60,986 bases of DNA from Acidimicrobiales bacterium (GTDB lineage: Bacteria; Actinomycetota; Acidimicrobiia; Acidimicrobiales; SHLQ01). The notes beneath the pieces were generated by a model, which did not search any database, was not told the origin of the DNA, and worked only from the letters and a program-made list of their open reading frames with translations. Location: the NCBI GenBank assembly GCA_020628865.1, contig JAHDEJ010000014.1:61659-122644 (forward strand), written 5' to 3'. Of this stretch, positions 38,492-58,049 are shown in pieces (the first letter of the stretch is position 1; each line of letters starts with the position of its first letter). The position numbers and the translations under genes are program-made.

Positions 38492-39515
38492 TCAGTTGAT
38501 CCCACCGATGTAGAAGCGAGTCTTGTTTCCGTTGCGGGTCGAGACGATGTCAAGCGCACCGTCGCCGGTGAAGTCGGCGAGCACGACCGCCTCCGTGTCG
38601 CCGGCAACGCTCACGCTCTGACCTGAGTCCGTGAAGTTCTCCGAGCCGTCGTTGAGCCAGACGGAGTTGGCGGCGCTGTGGTCGCCGTACACGATGTCGA
38701 TGTCGCCATCGCCGTCGACGTCGCCGGTGGTCAGCGACCGGGTATGCCCATTGCCGAGCGACTGACCGGTGTCGACGAAGGTGCCGTTCCCGCTGTTCAT
38801 CCAGAGCGTGTCGGGATCGTTGTCGGCTGCCGCAGCCAGGTCGGCAACACCATCGCGGTTGAAGTCGACAAGGACGATGTCCCACGTCTTCGCCGATCCG
38901 AGCGCCTGCCCCGAACTGGTGAAGGTGCCCGTGCCGTCATTGATCCAGACGGTGTTGGCCTGGCCTTCGTTGCCGATCACGATGTCGAGGTCGAAGTCGC
39001 CGTCGATGTCGTCGATCGCCACCGCTCGACTCTTTGCGCTGTCAGCGCCGAACACCTGCGTGAGCGTGAAGTTGCCGGCTCCATCGTTCAACCGGATCGC
39101 GTTGTGATCCTGGTAGTTGGCGGACACGACGTCGATGTGGCCATCACCGTCGAGGTCGCCCAACGCCACGTCGTAGCTGTCGAACGCACCGAGCGTCTGG
39201 TCCAGCGAGAACGTTCCGTCGCCGGCGTTGATCCAGGTTTCGTTGCCTCCACCGACCTGGGCCGTGACGAAGTCGAGGTGACCGTCGCCATTCAGGTCGG
39301 CGCTCGCAATTCCTTGGACCTGGTCGTCACTGTCGTAGTGGTCCGGGTCGCCGAACGCCAGGCCAGCTCCGGTGTTGAGCCAGACGAACGTGCCATTGTC
39401 CTCGGTCGAGATTGCCAGGTCGAGGCGCCCATCTCCGTCGAAGTCTGCTGCGACACCGTCCGTGCCCTTCAGATCCTCGCTGCTCTCGATCGTCGAGTAG
39501 GTGAAGACGCCAGTG
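38492..39515 (-). repeat. seven VCBS/FG-GAP repeats
   Basis: C-terminal part of the giant protein. Seven D-x-D/N-G-D-G-x-x-D-type calcium loops are seen, for example DFDGDGRLDLAIS, DLNGDGHLDFVTA and DVDGDGDIDIVYG, each followed by a W-L/I-N-D-G segment. They predict a seven-bladed beta-propeller. Confidence 0.85.
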
Positions 39516-42500
39516 GATCCGGGAGCGGTCGGCGACAGGTCGGCAACATCACCGATCCCGTCGCCATCCGTGTCGATCTGTCGAGGGTTGAAGAGGCCGG
39601 GCGCATTGTCCACGGCCTGGTCGACACCGTCGAAGTCTTCGGGCGAGATCAGGATGTCGACGACCACCGCGGCCGACGTATCCACCCCGCCATTGCCGGT
39701 TCCACCGTCGTCGACCGCGCTGATGGTGAGCGTGGTTTCGCCGCTCACGCCGTCAGCCACGGTCATGCTCAGCCGGCCGGCGCTGTTGACGGCGGGCTGC
39801 ACGTCGAAGAACTCTGGGTTCGGCGTGTTGACAGTGAACGTGACCGTCTGGACCGACTCGTTCGCCGGTCCAGCCTGGATGTCGGTCGCCCAGTTCGGAA
39901 TCGCGATCGCCCCGATGCCTTCGATCATCGTGAGATTCGGGCCGCGTGTGAACGATGGTGCATCGTTCACGGGAGCGATGCTCAGCGTGACTGTGGCAGG
40001 ATCGGAAAGCAGCCCCCCGGAGTCCGCGACCCGATAGGTGAAGGAATCCGCTCCGTTCGAATCAGGATCCGGCTCGTAGTCGAAGGTGCCGTCGCCGTTG
40101 TTCGTCAACGTTCCTGAGGTGGGATCGTCCACCACAACGACGGTTGTCGAGTCGACCGTGGTGTCTTCCGGATCGGTGTCGTTCGCCGTGACATCGCCGG
40201 TGGTGAGGGTGGCGCCTTCGACGCCCTCGAATCCGATGCCGCTGTCGTCGTTGGCAACAGGCTTGTCGTTGACCGCAGTGATCGTGATGGTCACGGCAAC
40301 CGGATCAGACGTGGCGCCATCCGCATCGGTGATCGTGTACGAGAATCCGTCCGTGCCGTTGAAGAATGCGTCCGGCTGATAGTCGAACGTTCCATCACCA
40401 TTGTTCGTGAGGGATCCGTTGTTCGGGGTCGTGGTGTTCACCGCCGACGACGGAACGATCGGGCTGTCGATGTCGGTGTCGTTGTCGGTGACATCGATGG
40501 TCGTCAGGAGCTGTCCTTCGGAGGTGGTGAAGCCGACCCCGGAGTCCGGGTTGGCGACAGGCCGATCGTTCTGCGCGTCGACGAAAATGCGAAGGATCGC
40601 CCGTTCCGACCTGGCCCCTGCCGGATCCTGAATCGTGTACTGGATGTCCTCCTGGCCGACGAAGTCCGGGTCCGGCGTGTAGTTGAACGTGCCATCGCCG
40701 TTGTAGACGAGACTGCCGTTGGCTGCCCCGACCGACACGCCGAGCGATGTCGGATCCACGACGTCGTCCACGTCGTAGTCGTTGGCGAGCACATTCGGGG
40801 TGGTGAATGGCGTGTCTTCGTTGGTTCGGATCGAACCATCTGTTCCATCGTTCAACGCAACGGGGGCATCGTTCTCGCCGGTCACCACGAGGTTCACGGT
40901 GACGGTGTTCGACGTGAGACCTCCATCGTCGTCGACTGTGTACGTGAATGCGTCAGCGCCGGCAAAGTCGAGGTTTGGTTCGTAGTAGAACGTGCCATCA
41001 CCGTTGTTCGTGAGCACGCCACCGACGGCGTCTGCCACGACGACAACGGTCGTCGGATCCACCGTGCCGTCGATGTCCGTGTCGTTGGTCGTCACATCCG
41101 GCGTCGTGAACGGCATCTCCTCGGTCGTGGTCCAGGCCGCACCAAAGTCGGCGAGGGCAACCGGGGGATCGTTCTCACCGGCGACGTCGATCGTCACGGT
41201 GACGGTGGCGGACGGGGCCCCGTCGCCGTCGACAACCTGATACGTGAACGTGGTCGTGCCAGCGAAGTCGGCCGGGGGCACGTAGTCGAAGGTGCCATCG
41301 CCGTTGTTGGTCAGGGTTCCCGAAGCAACGGCGTCGATCACCGTCACATCGACACCGGCGAGCGTGTCTTCCACGTCGCTGTCGTTGTCGAGCACCGATG
41401 CGGTTGTGAACGAGGTGTCTTCGGTGGTGCCGAAACCGGCGCCGTTGTCGTCGTTGGCGACAGGCGTGTCGTTGACCGGTGCGACCTCGATCGTGACCGC
41501 CACCGTCTCGGTCGACGCGCCGTCCGCGTCTGTCACGCGGTACTCGAACCCGTCTGTTCCGTTGAAGTGCAGATCGGGGACGTAGTCGAAGGTGCCGTCG
41601 CCGTTGGTCGTGAGTGTGCCGTGCTGGGCACTCTGCACAAGGACGAGGCCGGCGGGGTCCAGAGCGCCCTCCTCGTCGAGATCGTTCGCGAGGACGTCGC
41701 CGGTGGTGAACGCCGTGTCCTCGAGCGTGTTGAAGAGCGCGCCGTTGTCCGGAGCAGCGACCGGAATGCCGTTGACCGAGGCGACCGTCAGAACGAAGCT
41801 CATCGTGGTTCGGTCAATGCCTCCGATCTCCGTCCCACCGTCGTCCACGAGCGTCACCGTCACCGTTGCGTTTCCGAACGCATTCGGGGCAGGGGTGAAG
41901 GTGAGTGTCCCCGTATCGTCGATTGCCGGAGCACTGCTGAACAGCGCAGGATTGTCATCGGTGACATCGAACCGAATCGCCTGCGCTCGTTCGCTCGGCG
42001 GGCCGGCGAGCACGTCCGCAGCGAAGCCGCTGATCGACTGCGCTCCGGCATCCTCGTCGACGACGACGTCGCCATCGAGCGAGAAGGTCGGCGCGTCATT
42101 GACTTCGATCAGCTCGATGGTGCGGGCGCCAAGGAACATCGATCCACCAGCACTGTCGGTTGCGGTGACACTGACGGTGGCGACACCGACAGCATCGGCC
42201 GCAGGGGTGAACGTGAGGGCTCCTCCATCGGAAATCGCCGGAGCGGCAGAGAACAGCCTCGGCCGATCTGTGGCAACGGTGAAACTGACCGTTTGATCCG
42301 ATTCGTTCGCCGGGCCGGCCACGACGTCGGTGATCCACGAGTCACGGGTCTGCGTGCCACGATCCTCCTGCAGCGAAATGTTCACGCCGAGCGAGGCGGT
42401 TGGCAGATCGTTGACCGAGCGGATCGTGATCGTCGCCGTACCGGTCCGGCTGTCCTGTCCACCTCGCTCGACCCCGCCACCGTCGCTCGCGGTCACCGAG

Positions 42501-44665
42501 ATCGTCGTCGAACCGAAGCGATCGGGTGCTGGGGTGAAGGTCAGCGTTCCTGTGGCGTCGACGGCGGGCTGAACGGAGAAGAGCGTGGAATCCAGAGCAC
42601 TTACGTCGAAGACCAGCGCTTGGGCTGCTTCATCGTTCGGTCCGGGTGAACGATCTGCGGCAAAATTGGGAAGGACGACCCCGGCGCTGTCTTCGTCGGC
42701 GATGACCCCGGACACCAGCGAGAACGTCGGGGGGTCGTTGACCGGTTCGACCGTGACGACGACGGAGGCAAGATCGCACTGCCCATCGATGTCGCAGACG
42801 CGATACGAGAAGCCGACAGCTCCGTTGAAGTCCGGCGCAGGAATCCACTCGATCGTTCCGTCGATCACGCGAGCGACACCTGACGGGGCGGGAGCAACAA
42901 GTGCCACCGTGTCGGGATCGAGGGCGACGTCGCCAGGCACGTCGTTGGTGGTCGGAGCGAAGCGGGCGACCGAGTCTTCGTCGATGGTGATCGCATCGTC
43001 GACTGCCGTCGGACCGACCGGGTCCCGAACGACCGTGATTGTGAGGATCTCTTCGGTGACGACACCGGACTGATCGGCAGCCGCGTACGTGATGGCCACC
43101 GTGTCGCTGGAGTCCGCAGCCGTGAATTCGATTCGGTTGTCGACGATACGGACGGATCCCGAGGAGGGCTGACTCACCGATATCAGCTCGAGGGGTTCGC
43201 CGTCCGGGTCGAGGTCGTTGGAGAGCACGTCCACGGCGATCGTCTCACCGGCGGCGACCCGGACAGCGTCGCCCACGCCGGTCGGAGCGTCGTTCACCGC
43301 TTCGAAATCGATCACGACGGTTCCGCCATCACAACGGGTGTCGAGACACGCCTGATACGGCACGGTGAGCTCGCCGTTCCAGTTCGGGTCGGGCTGTACG
43401 GTGAGCACGCCCTCGGGATCGACTTCGATCGTCGCTCCGGCCACACCGCCGGGTAGCACGAACGTCACGCCCTGGTCAGCCACAGCGGATCGCAGGTCGA
43501 AAAGGAACACCTCGTCCTCGATGCCGGCGAGCGAGATGTCGGGGGCATCGATGTCGACGAGGGCGACTGCGGCTGGTGGTTCCTCGGGCGGCGGTGTCGG
43601 GTCGACGAGGCCGGACACCGCGGTGACCGCAATGGTGGCAGCGGCGGAAGCGCCCGTTGCCGCCGCCGAACCGGCACCTGCGGTGGCCGCCGTGGGCAGC
43701 GGCAATTGCGCCAAGCCAGCGAGCGGACCGGCGACGAGACGCAGGTGACCGAGCGCAATGTTGAGAAAGGCGCGGACGACTTCGGGATCGAACTGGGTGC
43801 CCGAGTTCTTCGCCAACTCCTCGCGTGCGGCCTCGGCCGACATGGGCTTCTTGTAGGAGCGGGTCGACGTCATCACGTCGTAGGCGTCCGCCACGGCCAC
43901 GATTCGGCCGGCGAGCGTGATCTCCTCGCCGGCGAGCCCAAGCGGATAGCCCGTGCCGTCGAACTTCTCGTGGTGCTGCGTCGCCGACTCGGCGAAGTCG
44001 CCGAGGAAGTCGCGCAACGGCTCGATCAGCTCACCGCCGTGGCGCGGGTGTTGCTTGAGTACCTCCCACTCCTCATCGTCTGGACGACCGGGCTTGTTCA
44101 GGATCTCGGTGGGCACATGGAGCTTGCCCACGTCGTGGATGAGGCCGGACCAGTTGAGCAGCTCGACCTCGTGATCGTCGAGCCCCATCTCTTCGCCGAT
44201 CATCACGGAGTACGCCCGGACACGTTCGGTGTGCCCCCGGGTCAGGCGGTCGTGGGCGTTCAGCGCGGCCGCGATGCCGATCAGCTGTTCCGCGGCCTCC
44301 TGCGGTGTCGACGCTTCGAGCTCTCCGGCGGCCATCTTTCGCTTGAGCTGCTTGACCGTGCCGACGCGGAGAGCCGTGCTGAATCGGGATGGGGCGCTGT
44401 CCGGGAAGACCAGCGAAATCTTGAAGAGCGCAGCGATCGGCAGCAGTCGCCGGAAGAGCCGGTCGACCATCGCCAGGAGCAGCGTTGCGAACACCGAGAT
44501 GGCGATCCACCACCCGATGGCCTGCATCAGATCATCGGGCCGGGGGAAGCCTCGAGAAACGATCGTGACCAGAACGATGGTGATCAGAATCGGCGCGACG
44601 ACGATGCCGATCCGCAGCGCCCGGGCAATGCCCGGACGACTGTGCCACGCACGCGTTTCTTCCAT
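38492..44665 (-). CDS. giant HD-GYP / Ig-cadherin repeat / beta-propeller membrane protein
   Basis: About 2057 aa. Two N-terminal membrane segments (about 14-37, 47-74) precede a cytoplasmic HD-GYP domain (about 130-304) with H-D in LIHDVGK at 177-178 and HHEKFDGTGYP ending near 241, all key residues of a c-di-GMP phosphodiesterase. A Gly/Ala-rich hydrophobic stretch (about 325-354) then leads through P-T-P-P-P-E-E-P-P to an outside region: Ig/cadherin-like repeats, a Ca-binding-like D-x-D-G-D-G-I-G-D segment, and seven VCBS-type repeats that should form a propeller. ATG 44665 is used; TTG 44683 is a longer option. It may sense c-di-GMP inside while presenting an adhesin outside. Confidence 0.88.
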   Translation of the reverse strand: MEETRAWHSRPGIARALRIGIVVAPILITIVLVTIVSRGFPRPDDLMQAIGWWIAISVFATLLLAMVDRLFRRLLPIAALFKISLVFPDSAPSRFSTALRVGTVKQLKRKMAAGELEASTPQEAAEQLIGIAAALNAHDRLTRGHTERVRAYSVMIGEEMGLDDHEVELLNWSGLIHDVGKLHVPTEILNKPGRPDDEEWEVLKQHPRHGGELIEPLRDFLGDFAESATQHHEKFDGTGYPLGLAGEEITLAGRIVAVADAYDVMTSTRSYKKPMSAEAAREELAKNSGTQFDPEVVRAFLNIALGHLRLVAGPLAGLAQLPLPTAATAGAGSAAATGASAAATIAVTAVSGLVDPTPPPEEPPAAVALVDIDAPDISLAGIEDEVFLFDLRSAVADQGVTFVLPGGVAGATIEVDPEGVLTVQPDPNWNGELTVPYQACLDTRCDGGTVVIDFEAVNDAPTGVGDAVRVAAGETIAVDVLSNDLDPDGEPLELISVSQPSSGSVRIVDNRIEFTAADSSDTVAITYAAADQSGVVTEEILTITVVRDPVGPTAVDDAITIDEDSVARFAPTTNDVPGDVALDPDTVALVAPAPSGVARVIDGTIEWIPAPDFNGAVGFSYRVCDIDGQCDLASVVVTVEPVNDPPTFSLVSGVIADEDSAGVVLPNFAADRSPGPNDEAAQALVFDVSALDSTLFSVQPAVDATGTLTFTPAPDRFGSTTISVTASDGGGVERGGQDSRTGTATITIRSVNDLPTASLGVNISLQEDRGTQTRDSWITDVVAGPANESDQTVSFTVATDRPRLFSAAPAISDGGALTFTPAADAVGVATVSVTATDSAGGSMFLGARTIELIEVNDAPTFSLDGDVVVDEDAGAQSISGFAADVLAGPPSERAQAIRFDVTDDNPALFSSAPAIDDTGTLTFTPAPNAFGNATVTVTLVDDGGTEIGGIDRTTMSFVLTVASVNGIPVAAPDNGALFNTLEDTAFTTGDVLANDLDEEGALDPAGLVLVQSAQHGTLTTNGDGTFDYVPDLHFNGTDGFEYRVTDADGASTETVAVTIEVAPVNDTPVANDDNGAGFGTTEDTSFTTASVLDNDSDVEDTLAGVDVTVIDAVASGTLTNNGDGTFDYVPPADFAGTTTFTYQVVDGDGAPSATVTVTIDVAGENDPPVALADFGAAWTTTEEMPFTTPDVTTNDTDIDGTVDPTTVVVVADAVGGVLTNNGDGTFYYEPNLDFAGADAFTYTVDDDGGLTSNTVTVNLVVTGENDAPVALNDGTDGSIRTNEDTPFTTPNVLANDYDVDDVVDPTSLGVSVGAANGSLVYNGDGTFNYTPDPDFVGQEDIQYTIQDPAGARSERAILRIFVDAQNDRPVANPDSGVGFTTSEGQLLTTIDVTDNDTDIDSPIVPSSAVNTTTPNNGSLTNNGDGTFDYQPDAFFNGTDGFSYTITDADGATSDPVAVTITITAVNDKPVANDDSGIGFEGVEGATLTTGDVTANDTDPEDTTVDSTTVVVVDDPTSGTLTNNGDGTFDYEPDPDSNGADSFTYRVADSGGLLSDPATVTLSIAPVNDAPSFTRGPNLTMIEGIGAIAIPNWATDIQAGPANESVQTVTFTVNTPNPEFFDVQPAVNSAGRLSMTVADGVSGETTLTISAVDDGGTGNGGVDTSAAVVVDILISPEDFDGVDQAVDNAPGLFNPRQIDTDGDGIGDVADLSPTAPGSTGVFTYSTIESSEDLKGTDGVAADFDGDGRLDLAISTEDNGTFVWLNTGAGLAFGDPDHYDSDDQVQGIASADLNGDGHLDFVTAQVGGGNETWINAGDGTFSLDQTLGAFDSYDVALGDLDGDGHIDVVSANYQDHNAIRLNDGAGNFTLTQVFGADSAKSRAVAIDDIDGDFDLDIVIGNEGQANTVWINDGTGTFTSSGQALGSAKTWDIVLVDFNRDGVADLAAAADNDPDTLWMNSGNGTFVDTGQSLGNGHTRSLTTGDVDGDGDIDIVYGDHSAANSVWLNDGSENFTDSGQSVSVAGDTEAVVLADFTGDGALDIVSTRNGNKTRFYIGGIN
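39960..41770 (-). repeat. six 300-bp Ig/cadherin-like modules
   Basis: A conserved T-N-N-G-D-G-T-F-D-Y motif recurs at about 40089, 40389, 40689, 40991, 41291 and 41591, that is every 300 (once 302) nt. Each module is about 100 residues and ends in N-D-x-P-V-A. This is the tandem-95 type of bacterial Ig-like repeat. Confidence 0.85.
41770..42760 (-). repeat. second class of cadherin-like modules
   Basis: Three modules with a different consensus (L-F-S-x-x-P-A-I-x-D-x-G-x-L-T-F-T-P-A) are centred near 41900, 42220 and 42560; a fourth copy, FFDVQPAVNSAGRLSMT, lies apart near 39800. They belong to the same fold group but are clearly a separate lineage within the protein. Confidence 0.7.
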
Positions 44666-44901
44666 CCGTGAGAACGTCGGCAAACAATGGGATTTTCTGT
44701 GTGGGTCGGTCGGCCCTGCCGAACGTCCACGCGGTCATCTTTCGCGACGGGTGACCGCTGGTCCGAACGGCCCGATTTGTCATGCCATTCGACCCATTTC
44801 GAACCCGGCGGACGCACGCTTCGCAGATGGAGAAGACCTCGTCGGCTCAGAAATCACGACGCACGAGGACTAGCGTTCGGACGTCGACAGTCCGGAGAGG
44901 A
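44666..44901. promoter_or_regulatory. divergent promoter region
   Basis: 236-bp space between the HD-GYP giant gene (minus) and the LLM oxidoreductase (plus). It should hold both promoters. I see no convincing operator; only a weak hairpin C-G-G-A-C / G-T-C-C-G near 44880-44896 just before the LLM ribosome site. Confidence 0.5.
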
Positions 44902-48428: not shown

Positions 48429-50039
48429 GTGACAGCGAGGGCTCAGACACCCCAGGACGGGACCACCGGCGGCAGCGTCGCCGTCGGTGTCGCCGCCTTT
48501 GGCGCAGCCCGGCTTTTGCGCGGGCTGCTTGCGATCGCGGCCGTGCCCGTTGTGGCCGTCGACCGCGGCGACCTGGTCTCGGCCAACCTCATCGTGCTGC
48601 TTGCGATCGTCAGCCTGCTGAGCGTCGCACTTGGGGTGGTGAGTCCGGACACGCAGCGTCGCGAACTCGCCGTGGCCCAGTTGGTGCTCGACATCGTCCT
48701 CGCGCTGGCCGTCTCCTCCCTCGCCGACGCTCAGGCCATGCCGCTCGTCTGGTTGGCACTCCTCGTGCCGGCGATGACGGCGGGAGAGCACTTCGGGATT
48801 GGAACGGCGGTTGCGACGTGGACTGCGGTCAGCTTCGGCTTCGCCGGCCTGAGCTTCGGCTTCGGGCCCAACGACTACTCGAACTCTGACGTTCTTCGAC
48901 TGGTCCTCCAGCAGGTGGTGGCGTCCGTCGCCATCGTCGGTTCTGTGGTCTACGTTGCGCGCCGTAACTGGACCGCCTTCCAACAGGTTGCCGCCGATCG
49001 TCAGGTGGCGACCGAGCGGCTGCAGCATCTTCTTGCGATCGGCGACACCGCAATGCGCTTGGCCGAGGCCGACGAATCGGAAACCGTGTCACGGGAGACG
49101 GTCTCGGCGGCGCTGCAGAACGGCTTCGCTCGCGCCGAGCTCTGGAAGCGGGACACCGACGAGTGGAAGCTCCTGGGCTCTGGAGGCGGCCTGCCCATCA
49201 GCGACGACCTCGTCCGTCGTCTGCTCGACCGTCCACAAGTCCCGCGGCTGGCACAGCGAGAGACCGTCGATTCGCTCGATGGCGTTCAGTCCCGGTCGCT
49301 CTTCGCCGCCGGCTACACGAGTGTCGTGGTCCTGTCGGTGGTACCGCCCGGCACGGACGAGCTCCGGCTGATCGGATACGGCCAGGTGGAAGATCGGGGG
49401 CAGCAGCAGCTCGATTCGCTCGAGCTGATCGGCGGGCACGTCGCCACTGCGTGGAAGAAGTCCGAACGGATCAAAGAGCTTGATGACTGGTCCAGACGCC
49501 TTGCGCACGAAGCGACACACGATCAGCTCACCGGCCTGCCGAACCGGGCCGGCTTGTTCGAGTGCTTTCAGCGCACTCCGGCGACCAGCAACCACATGAT
49601 CCTCTTCTTCGACCTGAACGGATTCAAAGAGATCAACGACGCGTACGGACACGACGCCGGTGACGCGCTCCTGCGCGGAATCGCCGAACGCCTGCAGGAA
49701 GCGCTTGCTCCGGCCGGACACTACGTCGCTCGTCTTGGCGGCGATGAGTTCGTGGTGTGCGCTTCACTCGACTCGGCCACACCGGAACATCTGTGCGAGA
49801 CGCTCATCATTGCGGTCGAACACCCCGTCGTCTTCGACAGTCAATTGCTCTCCGTGGGAACCAGCATTGGCGTTGCGCTCTCCTCGGAGGACTCCACGAA
49901 CCAGGAACTTCTTCGCCTGGCCGACAAGGCGATGTACCGGGCGAAGGCCCGGAAGGAAACAGGCTCGGCTTGGGCGCTCGCAACCGACAGCCCTGACCTC
50001 CACCCAACAGCTCGACGAGGAGGGCTGTTCGGTGTCTGA
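48429..50039 (+). CDS. membrane-bound diguanylate cyclase
   Basis: 536 aa. Five or six membrane segments fill residues about 15-180, then a GAF-like domain (about 190-345) and GGDEF domain (about 360-520). The active site is ARLGGDEF with GGDEF at 437-441, and DLNGFKEINDAYGHDAGDALL is the metal-binding part, so it should make c-di-GMP. Unlike the cyclase at 34020 it lacks the R-x-x-D I-site, so product inhibition is not expected. The start is GTG 48429. It overlaps the next gene by 8 nt. Confidence 0.88.
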   Translation: MTARAQTPQDGTTGGSVAVGVAAFGAARLLRGLLAIAAVPVVAVDRGDLVSANLIVLLAIVSLLSVALGVVSPDTQRRELAVAQLVLDIVLALAVSSLADAQAMPLVWLALLVPAMTAGEHFGIGTAVATWTAVSFGFAGLSFGFGPNDYSNSDVLRLVLQQVVASVAIVGSVVYVARRNWTAFQQVAADRQVATERLQHLLAIGDTAMRLAEADESETVSRETVSAALQNGFARAELWKRDTDEWKLLGSGGGLPISDDLVRRLLDRPQVPRLAQRETVDSLDGVQSRSLFAAGYTSVVVLSVVPPGTDELRLIGYGQVEDRGQQQLDSLELIGGHVATAWKKSERIKELDDWSRRLAHEATHDQLTGLPNRAGLFECFQRTPATSNHMILFFDLNGFKEINDAYGHDAGDALLRGIAERLQEALAPAGHYVARLGGDEFVVCASLDSATPEHLCETLIIAVEHPVVFDSQLLSVGTSIGVALSSEDSTNQELLRLADKAMYRAKARKETGSAWALATDSPDLHPTARRGGLFGV

Positions 50040-51309
50040 TCAGCCCACATTCTCCATCCCGAACCAGAAGAGTTCGGCTGAGCGTCGCCGGCAAGCCCGC
50101 GCGGCTGCACTGTCGGCCGCCTCTGTCGCGTTGGCGCTCATCCTCGTCGTCGCCGGCGCCTACACGGCGGCACAGGAGTCCCGGGCGATCGCTGAAGCGG
50201 CGACCGACATCCAACGAATCGACGTTGTGCGACTCCGGGTTTCGGAACTCGAGGCGGCGCGGCTGCTTGCCCAGTCCGGCAACGCTTCGACCGAGGCGAC
50301 GGCGGAGCAGCTTCGATCCAACTCGATCGGGGACCTCACTGCGGCAAGCGAGTCCTCCGAAATTCCTCAGACGTTGGCGTCCGCGCTCGAGGCCTACTTG
50401 CGCACAGCCGACAACGATCTGGCGGACCCACAGGCCACGGCGCTGATCGTCGAGGCAATCGACGAGGCCCGTGAGTCGGTCGCCGATGAGCTGGACGAGT
50501 CCAGCGGCCTCCTTGATTCCCTGTCGATCCTTCTTGTGATCACGATCACCTACATCGTGCCAGCGCTCGGATTCGTCGTCTTCTGGCTTGCTGTCCGCCA
50601 GACCCGAAGCCTGCAGGAAGCGCGTGCGGAAGTCCGCCACGAACGGCAACGAAGCTCCCTACGAGATGCGTTGCTCCAGTCCCGCCTGAGCGCGATCGAA
50701 GCGGTTGCCACCAACGCGCACATGTCCAAGGTTGCGGCAGCGGTCGGCGCAAGCATCGACTCGACCCGAGCCATGATCGACGCGATCGATGAAACCACGG
50801 TGGCGGTGAACACCGACGTGTCAATTGCAGAGTTGCTCTCCGAGGTTCACGACGAGCACCGCACGGTTTCCGGAGCCGAGGTTCAGACAGCGTCGGGATT
50901 CGACGAAGTTCGCCGAGCGATCGTTCACGCCGACCGCCAGCTCGTTGGTCGCGCGCTCTCGTTGGTCGCGGCGAACGCTCGTCGACGCGGATGCAAGCGA
51001 CTGCATGTGCAGGGTCGACGGACCGAAACCGGGATCGCTCTCAGCTTCAGTCACGACGGTGCTCCGCTGACCGAGGCCGAGGTCCGCCTGGTCCTCGATC
51101 AGGTTCCGCTCAACGGCGAGGCGGCGTTGGAGCGTGGCTCCGAGCTCCTGCTGCTTGCGTACGCAGCCCGGCTGCTCGAGCACTGCCAGGCCGGACTCGA
51201 CATCGAACGAGCGGACGGACTCGAACGGGTCGTCGTGACCCTGACGGCTGCAGCACCATCACTCGCCTCGCCTCGATCGCAGGCCCCTGAGACCGCCACC
51301 GCAGCATGA
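50032..51309 (+). CDS. membrane protein with degenerate histidine-kinase-like C-terminus
   Basis: 425 aa from GTG 50032. TM1 (about 24-45), an outside helical region of about 110 residues, TM2 (about 158-182), then a coiled coil and a C-terminal domain (about 270-410) that looks like a worn GHKL ATPase: LVAANARRRG could be the N-box and SHDGAPLTEAE the G1 box, but the glycine-rich ATP lid is missing. I see no H-box with a clear phospho-His. It is thus probably a signalling pseudokinase or scaffold. It is locked between the cyclase and the giant surface protein by overlaps on both sides. Confidence 0.75.
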   Translation: MSDQPTFSIPNQKSSAERRRQARAAALSAASVALALILVVAGAYTAAQESRAIAEAATDIQRIDVVRLRVSELEAARLLAQSGNASTEATAEQLRSNSIGDLTAASESSEIPQTLASALEAYLRTADNDLADPQATALIVEAIDEARESVADELDESSGLLDSLSILLVITITYIVPALGFVVFWLAVRQTRSLQEARAEVRHERQRSSLRDALLQSRLSAIEAVATNAHMSKVAAAVGASIDSTRAMIDAIDETTVAVNTDVSIAELLSEVHDEHRTVSGAEVQTASGFDEVRRAIVHADRQLVGRALSLVAANARRRGCKRLHVQGRRTETGIALSFSHDGAPLTEAEVRLVLDQVPLNGEAALERGSELLLLAYAARLLEHCQAGLDIERADGLERVVVTLTAAAPSLASPRSQAPETATAA

Positions 51310-54300
51310 GCACCCATCTGCTGCGGCGGCAGGCGGTCGCGGTGGCTGGCCTGTTGGCGCTCCTCTCGTTGGTGGTCCTGAGCCTGCACCGCCCGGCGGT
51401 GGCCGGACCGACCGACGACTCCGACAGCGACGGCATCCAGAACCAGTTCGAGGACGCAAACCTCGACGCGGACAACGACGAAACGACGAACCCCGGGCCC
51501 GACAGCGACGGCGACGGAACGCCGGACTACCTGGATCCGGATGACGACGGCGACGGGACCCCGACTGCCGCAGAGTCGTCGGACCCGGATGGCGACGGCA
51601 ATCCGCGTGACGCGGTCGACGGGGACTTCGATGGCCAGCCGGACTATCTGGACCTGGCGACCATCGGTGCAGACCCCCAGGTGGCCAGCGAGGTCAAGAT
51701 CGGCAACGGGTCGGGTGGGCTTGGCGCCACCCTCGACAACGACGACACCTTCGGCTTCGACACGACGTCCATCGGCGATCTCGACGGTGACGGGACCATC
51801 GACCTCGCCGTCGGAGCCATCTGGGACGACGACGGCGGACCCGACCGCGGCGCGGTGTACATCCTCTTCATGAACCCCGACGGAACCGTTCAGCGGGAGC
51901 AGAAGATCAGCGATCTCGAGGGCGGCTTCGCCGCAGCACTGGAGGACCGCGACGAGTTCGGAGCCTCGGTTGCGCCGGTGGGCGATCTCGATGGTGACGG
52001 CACGACCGAACTCGCTGTCGGTGCGCGGGGTGACGACGATGGCGGACTCAACGGCGGAGCCGTCTACATCCTGTTCATGAACACCGACGGCACCGTCCAG
52101 TCGGAGCGCAAGATCAGCGCCACCGTGGGTGGGCTGGCTGGACCGAACATCGTGCGGTTCGGTCAACGATCCGCCGAGATCGGTGACCTCGACGGGGACG
52201 GCATCCCCGACCTTGCGGTCGGTGCCAGCTCGAGCCACGAAGTCCGCATTCTCTTCCTCAACGCCGACGGCACGGTTCGGACCGAACAGCGGATCGGCAC
52301 CGGTCTGGGCGGCCTTGCCGCGAACGTGACGGGCTCGTGGTTCGGCATCGACATCACGTCGCTTGGCGATCTCGACGGCGATGGCGTGGTCGACATCGCC
52401 GTCGGCGCATTCGGGGACAACGCCGGGGGTGGGGACGCCGGGGCGGTCCACGTCCTCTTCCTGAACTCCGACGGAACGGTCAAGGCCGAACAGAAGATCT
52501 CCTCGACCGAGGGCGGCCTCTCCCCCGGGCCTGGCCCCGGCGACAACTTCGGATCCTCGGTTGCTGCGTTGGGCGACGTGTACGGCGACGGGTCGCTGGT
52601 CCTTGCCGTCGGCGCGGCGTTTGCCGAAGCGGGCGGCACCGCACGGGGCGAGGTCTATCTCCTGTCGCTCGCGGCGAACGGCGTGGTCCAGTCCACGGAC
52701 AGGATCGGCGGAACCAGCGGCGGATTCTCCGGACCTCCCGGGGACTACTTCGAGTTCGGATCCTCGGTTGCCTCCGTGGGAGACCTCGACGGTGACGGGA
52801 CGATCGGGCTTGCGGTCGGCGCGTACGGCGACGATGACGGGGCCGGCTTCTACCAAGGCGCCGTTTACGTCTTCGACCTGAAGCCGTCGACGACGGCAAC
52901 GGTGAACTCGACCGGAGACGCCGGCGATTCGCTCCCCGGCGATGGCCGCTGCGATACGGGTGGCACAAACTCGCAGGGCGAGACGGAGTGCACGCTGCGC
53001 GCAGCGATCGAAGAGGCGAATGCGTTGGCGCTCGTCGACACCGTCGAGTTCCACATGCCGACCTCGGAAGCTGGGCCCGCCGCTGGTCTGTGGACGCTCA
53101 CCCCCACGAGTCCGTTTCCGACGATCACGTCGAGCGTCACGATCGACGGCAGCACACAGCCGGGACACGCCGAGAACACCATCCCGGCTCCCGGGGGTCT
53201 CGACGCCACCCACGCCGTTGTCCTCGACGGTGCTGCCGCGGGCGGCCCGCCGTTCACGATCGACGCAAATGGCACCACGCTCCACGGCCTCGTGATTCAC
53301 GGTTTCACCGCACCGCTCTACGTCCAGTCCAGCGCCACCATCACCGGATCCATCATCGGCGCCGACGCGACCGGGACCGTCGCCGTGCCGGGTGGCAACA
53401 ACGTCATCCACCATCGGGCCGACACGCTGCTCCAGCTGGGCGGCACATCTGCGGCGGACCGCAACCTGATCTCCGGTCATGGCGCGGCGATCTATCTGAA
53501 CGGCGATGGCGCAGTCGTGGAAGGCAATCTGATCGGAACCGAGATCACCGGCACCACCCCGCTTGGATCGCAGACCCGAAATCTGGTGGTCCGGGCATCC
53601 AACGTTCGAATCGGTGGGACGAGCCCGACATCTGGAAACGTGATCGCCGGCCCTGGTCCCGGCGTGTCCGTCGACGGCGGAACCGGCAACTCGATTCTGG
53701 GCAACGCAATCTTCAACAACGGCGACGTCGGTATCGACCTGTCGCCGACCAACGCACCGGACGGCCCGACGCCGAACGATGCCGGGGACGTGGACAGCGG
53801 CGCCAACGACTATCTGAACCATCCCGAGATCACCGACGCACGGTCGCTCGCGGGAACGGTGACCGTGGACTTTGACCTCGATGTTCCGGCCGGCACCTAC
53901 CGCGTGGAGGCGTTCACCAACCCGTCAGGGGGTGATCCGAGTGGCTACGGCGAGGGCGAACAGTTCGGTGCGGAAACGACCGTGACGCACCTCGGCACCG
54001 GTCGAGAGAGTTTCACACTCACGTTTGCCGGCGCATTGGGTGACGTCGTCAGCCTCACGGCCACGCAGGACGTTGGCGGGGGCGTGTTCGGTTCGACGTC
54101 GGAGTTCTCAGTCAACGCCGTCGTCGGGGACGGTCGACTGGCGACCGTCAATTCGACGGGAGACGCCAGCGATGCGCTGCTCGGCGACGCCATCTGTGAC
54201 ACCGGGGCGACGAACGCGCAAGGCCAGCCGGAATGCACGCTTCGGGCGGCGATCGAAGAGGCGACCGCGTCGCCCGGCACGTGGACGATCGAGTTCGACA

Positions 54301-57300
54301 TTCCGGCCAATGACCCGAATCACCTCTACCACCGCGATGACGGCAGTGCCGGCACGCTCTCCGCTCCGGTGGCGACCGCGCTGACCGACGACTCGATCCT
54401 CGACTTCGACCCGGACTATCCCGTCGGCCAGTTCTCCTGGTGGACCATTGCGGTGTCGGGCAACCTCCCCGACGTTCCGGGGAACACCACGATCGACGGA
54501 ACCACCCAACCGGGCTGGCAGCCGAACACCGCGACGGGTGGCGATGCTCGGGACGCGGTCCTGCCGATCGTCGTCACAAGCGACGGGTTCTACATCATGA
54601 ACCTCGACGGTTCCGGTTCGACCCTGCGCGGCGTGAACCTGTCGAGCGCCACCGGCACGATGCTTTACGTCAACGGCACCGGTGACCACGTGGTCGAGGG
54701 AAGCTGGTTCATGGTGGACCCGCTCGGCGTCGACAACGGCAACGGCGACGACGGCATCTGGGTCGTCACCTTGACGACTGACAACCGCATCGGTGGCCCC
54801 GATCCTGAGGATCACCTCCTGATCGGAAACGGGTACAGCAATTCCGGTCTGACCGTGATCTCCGACATGTCGACGGTGCAGAACGTGTGGATCGGCTCGA
54901 AGGTGACGGGCGACGAGCTCCTGCCCGGCTACAACGACATCCCGTTCGTCGTGTCGGGCAATGACAATGTGCTCGGTACCCCGGGTGCCGGCGTGGTCGT
55001 GAGCTCCTCGCTCAACGAGATCCTCATCCTCGATGGCGACCGCAACACGGTGCAGGCAAGCTCGTTCGGCTACCTCCCGAACGGCACCCCGGCCGTGGAA
55101 GCTGCGAGCAGGGTCTCCGGCGACGACAACACCCTCGGCGGCGTCAACGCCGGCGAGGGCAATCGCTTCCACGGCGGCGAGTTCGGGTACGTACTCTCCG
55201 TCAGCGGTGGCGTCGGCAACAGCGTCCTCGGTTCGTCCTACACCGGCACCACCGGACTCAACCTCGATGTCGGGCCAGCGGGCTACAACGCCAATGACGC
55301 GAACGACGCGGACATCGGCGACAACGACCTCCTCAATCACCCGACACTCACCAGCATCATTCCCGGGGCCGGCACGACGACGGCGACCTTCGACCTGGAC
55401 GTTCCCGCAGGCGAGTACTGGATCGAAATCCATGCCGACATGAACGAGGCTCCGAACCCCACGGGATATGGGGCCGGCGAAACGATCGTCGCCAGCACGT
55501 CGGTCACGCACACCGGTTCCGGGGTCGAGACCTTCCAGGCGGTGTTCCCAACGGTTGGGACGGCGTGGTTCAGTGCCACGGCGACGGAGGACCTTGGAGC
55601 CGGAGACTTCGGCTCCACGAGCGAGTTCGGTTCTGCGCTCTACGTGGCCGACCCCCGAGCCGTCGTGAACTCGACCGGCGACACCGGAGACGCGGCGGTG
55701 GGTGACGGCCGATGCGACACCGGCGCCACGAACTCGGAGGGAACTCCCGAGTGCACGTACCGGGCGGCCATCGAGGAGGCGAACGCTTCCGCCCTCAACC
55801 AGGTGTCGTTCTCCATGCCGACGACGGAACCCGGCCACTCCGGCGGGGTTTGGACGATCTCACCCGCATCGGCGTTTCCGCCGATCACCCAACCGATCAC
55901 CATCGATGGAACGACGCAGCCGGGCTACGTCGCCAACACGGCGGCCGCTCCGCTGGCCGTGGACAACCTGCCTGTCGTGCAGCTCGCCGGAGCGGACGCT
56001 GGCGACGGCATCCATGTCGCGGCCGGGGCCGACGGCTCGGTCCTGCGTGGGCTCACGATCAACGGGTTCAACGGCGTCGGCCTCTACGGCATCGACGTGA
56101 ACGCCGACGATGTGACGATTGCCGGGATGTTGATCGGGCTCGAAGCCGACGGCATCACGGACGACTTCAATGCGTACGGTGTGGTGATCAACGCGGACCG
56201 CACGGTGGTCGGGGGAACAGCGCCGGCGGACCGCAACGTCATCGCCGGCTCGCAGAATGCGCAAGTTCTCGTCGAGACCACCGGCAACGACATTCAGATC
56301 CTCGGCAACATTCTGGGCGCAGACGCGAGCACCACGCTCGTCCCGGGTGCCTGGGGCAGCGGCATTCAGGCGTGGAATGGCGACACCATCACCATCGGCT
56401 CCGCTGCTGCGCCCAACGTGATCGCCTCCTCGGCCTTCGAGTTCGGCATCGAGACCGGCGCCTCCAACGTCGTGATCGACAGCAACATCATCGGCACCGA
56501 TTCAACGTTCACCTTCGACCTCTCCTCGGGGTACGAGGCCATCGGGATCTTCGGGTCGACGGGATCGGTGACGAACAACGTGATCGGCCACTACAGCTAT
56601 GGCATTCGAGTCGACCAAGCCGACCACACGATCACCGGGAACGCCATCGGAACCGACCCGTCCGGAACGATCGACCTGGGCCTTGCGATCGATGGGATCC
56701 ACGTGACCAGTGGCGCGAGCGGAGTGGTCATCGGCGGCGTCGACCCGGCGGACGCCAACGTCATCGCCTTCAACGGCGGCAACGGCATCACGTTGCGCAA
56801 CCCGAGTGTGGATCCTGCAATTCTCGGCAACCGGATCGTGGGCAACGGGGGGCTCAGCATCGATCACGGCGATGACGGCGTCACCCCGAACGACAGCCCC
56901 GACGCCGACGGCGTACCCAATTTCCCGGTGCTGACCCAGGTGGAGACCGAAGGCGCCGATGTCCTCGTGACATTCCAGCTCGACACGACGCCGGGTGACC
57001 ACCGGATCGAGTTCTTCCTCAACCCGTCCGGCGCAGACCCGTCGGGCCATGGCGAAGCCGAGTCCTTGGTCCATGTGATCGTCGTCCAGCACGCGGGCGG
57101 CAGCGCCTCGTACACGACGTCGTTCGCGGGCCGGGCGGGCGAGCCTCTGGCGGCGACGTCCACCCGACTCACCGGCGGACTCAGCCATGAGCGGACCTCG
57201 GAAGTCGGATCGACCACAACGGTGGCGTGCGGCGACATCGACGGCGATGGTCTCTCCGATTGCGCGGAGGACGGGAATCCCGATGGCGACAACGACCCGA

Positions 57301-58049
57301 CAACGAACCCGGGGCCGGACACGGATGGCGACTCGATCCCCGACTACCTCGACCCGACCGACGACCCACCGCCTCCCGTCGATCCGCCCCTCCCGCCGGT
57401 GGATCCGCCCGCGCCTCCGGCAGAGACGACCACCACGACCGAGGCGCCATCGGTCGCCGCGCCCGTCCTCGTCCCAACCACGACGACGACCACGATTGCC
57501 CCACGGCCGGTCGAGGCCGAGCCACAACCGGCCGCTCCAGCCGGCACGATCGCACCGACGACGACCATCGCCGATCCGCCGGTTGCGCTCCCGCTGATCC
57601 AACCAGAGCCGACGCCCAACGATCCGATGGAGGCGATCGCTGCGTCGGAGTCGGCGTTGCGAGAGTTGTCCGGAGGTACCCAACTCGACCTGACCGATGA
57701 GACCGAACAGGTATCACTCGGCTCGTTCTTCGCTCCGATCCTCACCATCGGCCACCTTCGCCTTCCGCTCCACTGGCTCCTGCCCATGCTGGCCGTCGGA
57801 GCGCTCCTGGCACAGGTCCTGGCCATGTCACACCGAGGCCGGCAGATCGTTCGGGTGGCTGGAGTCAGCCGTCACGCCGTCCTGACCTCACAGCGCAGTC
57901 GGGGCAGAGTCGATCCCGTTCGCCTGTCGCCGTACGCCACCACGCTGCGGGCCCGCCGGCGCTGGCGTCGATCCCATCGGGAAGCCGTCGAACTCACCAC
58001 CCCGGTCGGCTCGGCCATCGTCCCGATGGACAACGTCACGCCGATGTAG
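51306..58049 (+). CDS. giant surface protein: FG-GAP propeller, CSLREA/beta-helix, C-terminal anchor
   Basis: 2247 aa. A signal peptide (about 1-33) is followed by a Ca-binding D-x-D-x-D-G region (about 37-115), six FG-GAP repeats (about 150-515, pattern GDLDGDGTIDLAVGA), then three CSLREA modules (CTLRAAIEEAN) each leading into parallel beta-helix sequence. Near 1975 comes another D-G-D-G region, then a Pro/Thr linker with T-T-T-T-T-T and one membrane segment (LPLHWLLPMLAVGALLAQVL, about 2157-2176) with a basic cytoplasmic tail of about 70 residues. It overlaps the upstream gene by ATGA. No sortase motif; it is membrane-anchored and can contact cytoplasmic partners. Confidence 0.9.
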   Translation: MSTHLLRRQAVAVAGLLALLSLVVLSLHRPAVAGPTDDSDSDGIQNQFEDANLDADNDETTNPGPDSDGDGTPDYLDPDDDGDGTPTAAESSDPDGDGNPRDAVDGDFDGQPDYLDLATIGADPQVASEVKIGNGSGGLGATLDNDDTFGFDTTSIGDLDGDGTIDLAVGAIWDDDGGPDRGAVYILFMNPDGTVQREQKISDLEGGFAAALEDRDEFGASVAPVGDLDGDGTTELAVGARGDDDGGLNGGAVYILFMNTDGTVQSERKISATVGGLAGPNIVRFGQRSAEIGDLDGDGIPDLAVGASSSHEVRILFLNADGTVRTEQRIGTGLGGLAANVTGSWFGIDITSLGDLDGDGVVDIAVGAFGDNAGGGDAGAVHVLFLNSDGTVKAEQKISSTEGGLSPGPGPGDNFGSSVAALGDVYGDGSLVLAVGAAFAEAGGTARGEVYLLSLAANGVVQSTDRIGGTSGGFSGPPGDYFEFGSSVASVGDLDGDGTIGLAVGAYGDDDGAGFYQGAVYVFDLKPSTTATVNSTGDAGDSLPGDGRCDTGGTNSQGETECTLRAAIEEANALALVDTVEFHMPTSEAGPAAGLWTLTPTSPFPTITSSVTIDGSTQPGHAENTIPAPGGLDATHAVVLDGAAAGGPPFTIDANGTTLHGLVIHGFTAPLYVQSSATITGSIIGADATGTVAVPGGNNVIHHRADTLLQLGGTSAADRNLISGHGAAIYLNGDGAVVEGNLIGTEITGTTPLGSQTRNLVVRASNVRIGGTSPTSGNVIAGPGPGVSVDGGTGNSILGNAIFNNGDVGIDLSPTNAPDGPTPNDAGDVDSGANDYLNHPEITDARSLAGTVTVDFDLDVPAGTYRVEAFTNPSGGDPSGYGEGEQFGAETTVTHLGTGRESFTLTFAGALGDVVSLTATQDVGGGVFGSTSEFSVNAVVGDGRLATVNSTGDASDALLGDAICDTGATNAQGQPECTLRAAIEEATASPGTWTIEFDIPANDPNHLYHRDDGSAGTLSAPVATALTDDSILDFDPDYPVGQFSWWTIAVSGNLPDVPGNTTIDGTTQPGWQPNTATGGDARDAVLPIVVTSDGFYIMNLDGSGSTLRGVNLSSATGTMLYVNGTGDHVVEGSWFMVDPLGVDNGNGDDGIWVVTLTTDNRIGGPDPEDHLLIGNGYSNSGLTVISDMSTVQNVWIGSKVTGDELLPGYNDIPFVVSGNDNVLGTPGAGVVVSSSLNEILILDGDRNTVQASSFGYLPNGTPAVEAASRVSGDDNTLGGVNAGEGNRFHGGEFGYVLSVSGGVGNSVLGSSYTGTTGLNLDVGPAGYNANDANDADIGDNDLLNHPTLTSIIPGAGTTTATFDLDVPAGEYWIEIHADMNEAPNPTGYGAGETIVASTSVTHTGSGVETFQAVFPTVGTAWFSATATEDLGAGDFGSTSEFGSALYVADPRAVVNSTGDTGDAAVGDGRCDTGATNSEGTPECTYRAAIEEANASALNQVSFSMPTTEPGHSGGVWTISPASAFPPITQPITIDGTTQPGYVANTAAAPLAVDNLPVVQLAGADAGDGIHVAAGADGSVLRGLTINGFNGVGLYGIDVNADDVTIAGMLIGLEADGITDDFNAYGVVINADRTVVGGTAPADRNVIAGSQNAQVLVETTGNDIQILGNILGADASTTLVPGAWGSGIQAWNGDTITIGSAAAPNVIASSAFEFGIETGASNVVIDSNIIGTDSTFTFDLSSGYEAIGIFGSTGSVTNNVIGHYSYGIRVDQADHTITGNAIGTDPSGTIDLGLAIDGIHVTSGASGVVIGGVDPADANVIAFNGGNGITLRNPSVDPAILGNRIVGNGGLSIDHGDDGVTPNDSPDADGVPNFPVLTQVETEGADVLVTFQLDTTPGDHRIEFFLNPSGADPSGHGEAESLVHVIVVQHAGGSASYTTSFAGRAGEPLAATSTRLTGGLSHERTSEVGSTTTVACGDIDGDGLSDCAEDGNPDGDNDPTTNPGPDTDGDSIPDYLDPTDDPPPPVDPPLPPVDPPAPPAETTTTTEAPSVAAPVLVPTTTTTTIAPRPVEAEPQPAAPAGTIAPTTTIADPPVALPLIQPEPTPNDPMEAIAASESALRELSGGTQLDLTDETEQVSLGSFFAPILTIGHLRLPLHWLLPMLAVGALLAQVLAMSHRGRQIVRVAGVSRHAVLTSQRSRGRVDPVRLSPYATTLRARRRWRRSHREAVELTTPVGSAIVPMDNVTPM
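52897..53024 (+). repeat. CSLREA module 1
   Basis: First copy of a module of about 43 residues: V-N-S-T-G-D-A-G-D-S-L, G-D-G-R-C-D-T-G, then CTLRAAIEEAN. The spaced Cys may pair. It precedes a beta-helix stretch. Confidence 0.85.
54143..54269 (+). repeat. CSLREA module 2
   Basis: Second copy (V-N-S-T-G-D-A-S-D-A, C-D-T-G-A-T-N-A-Q-G, CTLRAAIEEAT), about 1.25 kb after the first. Confidence 0.85.
55659..55788 (+). repeat. CSLREA module 3
   Basis: Third copy (V-N-S-T-G-D-T-G-D-A, C-D-T-G-A-T-N-S-E-G, CTYRAAIEEAN), about 1.5 kb after the second; followed by the longest beta-helix part. Confidence 0.85.

Follow-up and report, generated by a model that had tools for sequence, protein, structure and literature searches.

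Introduction

In the Lap systems of Pseudomonas (LapD-LapG-LapA) and Desulfovibrio (Dvh), a large adhesin is genetically tied to membrane proteins of cyclic di-GMP (c-di-GMP) signalling (PMC3032545, PMC13090378). There, LapD serves as the receptor of c-di-GMP, and the adhesin is cleaved by a protease in the periplasm. In Pseudomonas aeruginosa, PilY1 and the type IV pilus link the input of a surface protein to c-di-GMP (PMC8806160, PMC9210963). The generation of c-di-GMP upon contact or matrix engagement is known mostly from proteobacterial pili and flagella. Here we describe a three-gene cassette of an Acidimicrobiales bacterium (assembly GCA_020628865.1) that encodes a membrane diguanylate cyclase (DGC), a kinase-like membrane protein (MID) and a giant surface protein. 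It lies in a stretch of 60,986 nucleotides (nt), hereafter the window, which spans positions 61659-122644 of one contig (JAHDEJ010000014.1; C75 in our numbering) of a 5.36 Mb genome in 113 contigs.

The three genes recur together in actinobacterial genomes, and their giant proteins share a short tail that follows the membrane anchor. With modest confidence, we favor the reading that the trio forms a transmembrane signalling cassette, in which the tail would dock on MID, MID would gate the DGC and the signal would run from outside to inside.

Results

Layout and synteny of the trio

All three genes lie on the plus strand. The DGC gene (48429..50039; 536 amino acids, aa) and the MID gene (50032..51309; 425 aa) both have a GTG start and overlap by 8 nt (50032..50039). 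A Shine-Dalgarno-like run, GAGGAGGG, precedes the MID start within the DGC gene (50017..50024). The MID gene in turn overlaps the gene of the giant protein (51306..58049; 2247 aa) by the 4 nt ATGA (51306..51309). Open reading frames, coordinates and overlaps are all as given in an earlier, sequence-only reading of this DNA, which had also proposed that the trio forms a signalling-display module.

A MID profile was searched against 397 genomes of the order, in which full-length homologues were separable from ordinary histidine kinases. Together with loci from G008, G583, G680, G681 and G016:C6, this search yielded 26 MID loci, found in actinobacterial genomes of several families, one of which (G583, G680, G681) lies outside the order of the window. 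The N-terminal part of the DGC (residues 1-357, 48429..49499), which comprises the membrane helices and a GAF-like region and is here called GGN, was aligned over 21 sequences and gave a specific search. A GGN-type DGC adjoins MID in 25 of the 26 loci, and in the reverse search each of the 21 strong GGN matches in the order (E < 1e-57) has a MID as neighbor; weaker matches are mostly other proteins, often with GGDEF and EAL domains. The gene after MID encodes a large exported, C-terminally anchored protein in 22 of the 23 loci that could be assessed; the contig ends too soon in the other three (G001, G007:C197, G681), and some giants are truncated at a contig end or interrupted by a frameshift (G009, G680). 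The proposed module thus passed the synteny check, and chance adjacency was ruled out by synteny and co-occurrence.

A near copy of the window trio is found in G008 (L024, L118), an uncultured Acidimicrobiales metagenome-assembled genome. A single-protein search of genome contigs for named relatives returned only this near copy. A first match in G051 was discarded as unrelated based on its gene context.

Co-inheritance and selection

The 16 genomes (of 397) that hold MID are also those that hold GGN-type DGCs, and 14 of these 16, but no others, give strong matches to the tail of the giant (E < 1e-18), in searches that score the best few candidates per genome and may thus rarely miss one. In the remaining two genomes (G010, G376) the contig ends within the giant. 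The DGC tree mirrors the MID tree: r is 0.898, a value reached in 0 of 5000 permutations, and the two have 14 of 20 splits in common. These figures are inflated by genome relatedness. Paralogous cassettes of one genome fall in different, matching clades of the two trees, which argues for joint inheritance of the whole cassette and against a mere species-tree effect. It could be proposed that the genes are co-inherited without contact, as parts of a niche-adaptation island whose three products each serve a step of their own, and the varying orientation of the DGC gene among loci would suit such an island. The co-occurrence in the same set of genomes, the mirrored trees, the paralogous cassettes within one genome and the confinement of the tail to MID genomes make this very unlikely.

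Between G000 and G008, the ratio of non-synonymous to synonymous substitutions (dN/dS) is 0.08 for DGC, 0.08 for MID, 0.10 for the giant and 0.22 for its tail. This purifying selection on all three genes indicates that the trio is more than a set of chance open frames.

A second trio in the same genome

Contig C47 of the source genome holds a complete second trio (L019; DGC 16205-14619, MID 14622-13342, giant 13294-3956), which was reached through the modules of the giant. The two DGCs share 30% identity, N-terminus included. BLAST detects no similarity between the two MIDs, yet a profile built on both retrieves a coherent family; their kinship is revealed only by profiles and synteny. The second MID carries an intact HATPase_c domain (5e-11).

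The diguanylate cyclase

The N-terminus of the DGC consists of about five membrane helices followed by the GAF-like region, in which residues 264-357 of the profile bear a weak similarity to 3o5y, a sensor of GAF type. The invariant pattern of GGN in the 21-sequence alignment is D..PLxWLxLLxP..W..QQ. The GGDEF domain (residues 362-509, 49512..49955) matches Pfam at 7e-34, with the signature and the metal and substrate residues intact (DxLTGLPNR, DLNGFKEIND, GGDEF), so that the protein is apparently an active cyclase as judged by its motifs. The I-site position reads PAGH instead of RxxD, which bears out the description of a GGDEF enzyme lacking an I-site. RxxD, expected five residues before GGDEF, is missing from all 22 DGCs, of which 20 carry the GGDEF motif and two read GGDEM. 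The source genome has 46 GGDEF matches, two of which are of the GGN type.

GGN also occurs in proteins of about 1000 aa with GGDEF and EAL domains (L112:6114-9209, plus strand; similar settings in L111 and L115), flanked by secreted-looking proteins of about 200 aa with an N-terminal transmembrane segment (TM). The L112 protein has a signal peptidase S26 domain fused in front.

The kinase-like membrane protein

MID consists of TM1, a helical ectodomain of about 120 aa, TM2, a long helix and a domain of the histidine-kinase fold. The window MID has no Pfam match. Its model (pLDDT 75) resembles the catalytic domains of histidine kinases with Z 16-18, among them ThkA (Z 18.4 over 138 residues, root-mean-square deviation (rmsd) 1.8). 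HATPase_c is detected in 10 of 22 members of the family. The N-, G1- and G2-box ATP motifs are lost in the window MID and recognizable in about 7 of 23 homologues, in keeping with the degenerate ATPase domain that the sequence-only reading had described. No conserved phosphoacceptor histidine was found in the DHp helices of MID, no cytoplasmic histidine column exceeding 8 of 23, and no adjacent cognate response regulator is present among the upstream genes in the window. A plain two-component system was ruled out since acceptor histidine and regulator are both missing. The HATPase-like domain (residues 259-408, 50806..51255) has a dN/dS of 0.054 between G000 and G008, which shows that this degenerate part is maintained and rules out a decaying pseudogene.

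A 4-nt overlap closely couples the genes of MID and giant in most loci. This coupling would also be expected if MID, with or without the DGC, were an assembly or quality-control partner that senses the tail during export of the giant, c-di-GMP then reporting export status or envelope stress. Ectodomains of long repeats are likely hard to export, and the fusion of GGN to a signal peptidase and GGDEF-EAL would fit as well. MID, however, has no chaperone or secretion domain that we could find, and its fold is that of histidine kinases; we therefore regard such a role as improbable.

The giant surface protein and its tail

The giant protein comprises, in order, a signal, Asp-rich repeats, FG-GAP repeats, CSLREA/beta-helix modules, a Pro-rich linker, a TM and a tail. 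The N-terminal hydrophobic signal or TM spans residues 10-28. The FG-GAP region, an integrin-type propeller, covers residues ~130-525 (51693..52880). It is followed by the CSLREA and right-handed beta-helix modules (52899..57227), with paired cysteines at 549/562, 964/977 and 1470/1483. The C-terminal TM (residues 2157-2175, 57774..57830) precedes a basic tail of 72 residues (2176-2247, 57831..58046) with 15 Lys and Arg versus 4 Asp and Glu. The protein thus has the predicted layout of a surface adhesin, with export signal, extracellular repeats and membrane anchor, and agrees with the earlier description of a 2247-aa surface protein with a basic tail. The tail is predicted to lie inside the cell, because the protein has an N-terminal signal and one C-terminal TM followed by Arg-rich residues.

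Across cassettes, complete giants range from 626 to 4883 aa and carry FG-GAP, LamG, beta-helix, cadherin, Ig or PKD ectodomains. Despite these ectodomains of unlike size and domain content, a tail of about 70 residues recurs and is common to the cassettes. The tail of L026, modelled with 14 homologues, yields an all-beta domain (pLDDT 84). In structural searches (Foldseek, VIA-align), the top rows are nearly all SH3b or SH3 domains, and the best match is a chain of a phage endolysin (Z 8.4, 68 residues, rmsd 2.7). The tail thus models as an SH3b-like barrel. It has no Pfam match above the cut-off and no match among the PDB sequences. The tail profile reaches proteins with Pfam SH3_3 at 1e-6 in the reverse search, and two readable weak matches are exported-looking proteins with this domain. 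The sequence-only reading had taken the basic tail as a cytoplasmic element; the models point to something more specific, namely a conserved SH3b-like domain.

Other features of the window

Upstream of the trio, the window encodes luciferase-like, methyltransferase, SnoaL-like and unknown proteins. An Rfam scan detected no c-di-GMP riboswitch or other RNA in the window. On the minus strand, 38492-44683 encodes an HD-GYP phosphodiesterase with intact-looking motifs, followed by a further hydrophobic segment and a region of about 1700 aa with Big_9, cadherin and FG-GAP domains. This protein apparently fuses c-di-GMP breakdown to giant surface domains. Many related genomes encode several relatives of it each, some in open frames of up to 2530 aa.

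Discussion

A candidate outside-in signalling cassette

In the mechanism that we favor, the giant would be exported and held by its one C-terminal TM, displaying on the outside an ectodomain that can be exchanged. On the cytoplasmic side, the SH3b-like tail would dock on MID, which may act as a non-canonical kinase or pseudokinase relay and would gate the membrane DGC. The latter would make c-di-GMP free of product inhibition at an I-site. In this way, the binding of a ligand by the giant, or tension on it, would give rise to a c-di-GMP signal.

The domain scan found no c-di-GMP receptor domain in the trio proteins. Together with the lack of an I-site in the 22 DGCs, this fits a cassette with c-di-GMP as output rather than input. 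The opposite direction, inside-out, would have DGC and MID set the production, export, anchoring or retention of the giant, with c-di-GMP acting through an unlinked receptor in a Lap-like manner. Control of large adhesins by c-di-GMP is well known (PMC3032545, PMC6890996), the DGC has a membrane sensor domain of its own, and giants encoded away from the pair could be co-regulated targets. We nevertheless judge this direction unlikely: the cassette holds no EAL, PilZ, protease or I-site receptor, and inside-out control alone leaves the shared short cytoplasmic tail, confined to MID genomes, unexplained. Outside-in signalling is preferred for three reasons. First, the cassette would produce c-di-GMP, yet no known receptor for this messenger is part of it (neither EAL domain nor I-site). 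Second, giants with dissimilar ectodomains retain a common part, and this is an adaptor-like domain on the predicted cytoplasmic side. Third, tail-bearing giants encoded apart from the other two genes are found only where a MID-DGC pair exists.

Several observations weigh against this outside-in cassette. In one locus (G123:C85; L071, L108), MID and a giant of 4638 aa with the tail have no adjoining GGN-type DGC; this genome carries one elsewhere. In G006 (L060), the MID-DGC pair lacks a giant and a YkuD L,D-transpeptidase gene directly follows MID. Since in the related locus of G009 (L058) a YkuD gene of this type lies beside the giant, the giant of G006 was lost or collapsed in assembly; many genomes are in contigs broken at the repeats of the giants. 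The DGC gene is codirectional with MID in 11 of 24 measured loci, mostly with a 4-nt overlap, and transcribed divergently in the other 13. The earlier claim that the three proteins are made together hence stands for MID and giant nearly everywhere but not for the DGC in these 13 loci. At least five intact tail-bearing giants (L152, L153, L154, L155, L157) have no adjoining MID or DGC, which goes part of the way towards the regular occurrence of the surface protein without its partners that would refute the sequence-only reading, but all of them sit in genomes that hold a MID-DGC pair (G009 and G006). As to the tail, its Foldseek E-values are weak (0.16 and up), so that the fold call rests on consistency across matches, and the profile does not cover the tails of L072, L074 and L106, which have diverged too far and were placed by alignment only.

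The confinement of such orphan giants to MID-DGC genomes suggests that one pair serves several giants. A broader, more tentative proposal, which we hold as possible though somewhat less probable than the mechanism favored above, is that the giants are integrin-like plug-in receptors: ectodomains of any size would be mounted on a common TM and SH3b-like tail and signal through a pseudokinase of kinase fold to a dedicated c-di-GMP cyclase, with one relay for several giants of a cell.

If true, the trio would link one giant surface protein to c-di-GMP by a compact route with a defined genetic basis, in a phylum that is poorly described in this respect. It suggests a general way of turning outside contact into an internal signal. 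Tail, relay and cyclase are testable parts, and about 26 natural variants, as well as the natural orphans, are available for studying specificity.

Comparison with known systems

The cassette resembles Lap in the linkage of a large adhesin to membrane c-di-GMP proteins, but has an apparently active GGDEF domain, a cytoplasmic SH3b-like tail and a partner of kinase fold, with neither EAL domain nor protease. The NCBIfam LapD model reaches 44 bits (cut-off 1020). No LapG-type periplasmic cysteine protease is encoded in the trio or the near upstream genes, the part of the genome searched for it. A Lap system was therefore ruled out for lack of an EAL receptor and a linked protease. As with PilY1, a surface protein would provide the input; the cassette has no pilus parts, and the input would come from one giant protein that is anchored in the membrane and has a tail of its own as well as partners dedicated to it.

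MID shares the catalytic fold and the layout of TM, helical ectodomain and TM with histidine kinases, including the atypical DivL and RetS. It differs from them in that it has no conserved phosphoacceptor histidine, has lost the ATP motifs in most copies and has no adjacent response regulator. TIGR03785 represents the histidine kinase of a proteobacterial dedicated sortase system, a kinase dedicated to a surface-protein module. The paralogue P0004 weakly matches this family (E 0.009), but no sortase is seen in the cassette and a DGC takes the place where the response regulator would be. The tail shares its fold and a distant profile similarity with the SH3b domains of cell-wall proteins (Pfam SH3_3), from which it differs by its predicted cytoplasmic location behind a TM and by falling below Pfam thresholds.

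The sequence-only reading knew of no described system of this make-up, and none was found in the literature searched, which excluded subscription papers and preprints. The parts of the cassette are known folds, while the cassette as such, its tail, its relay and the N-terminus of its DGC appear to be unnamed.

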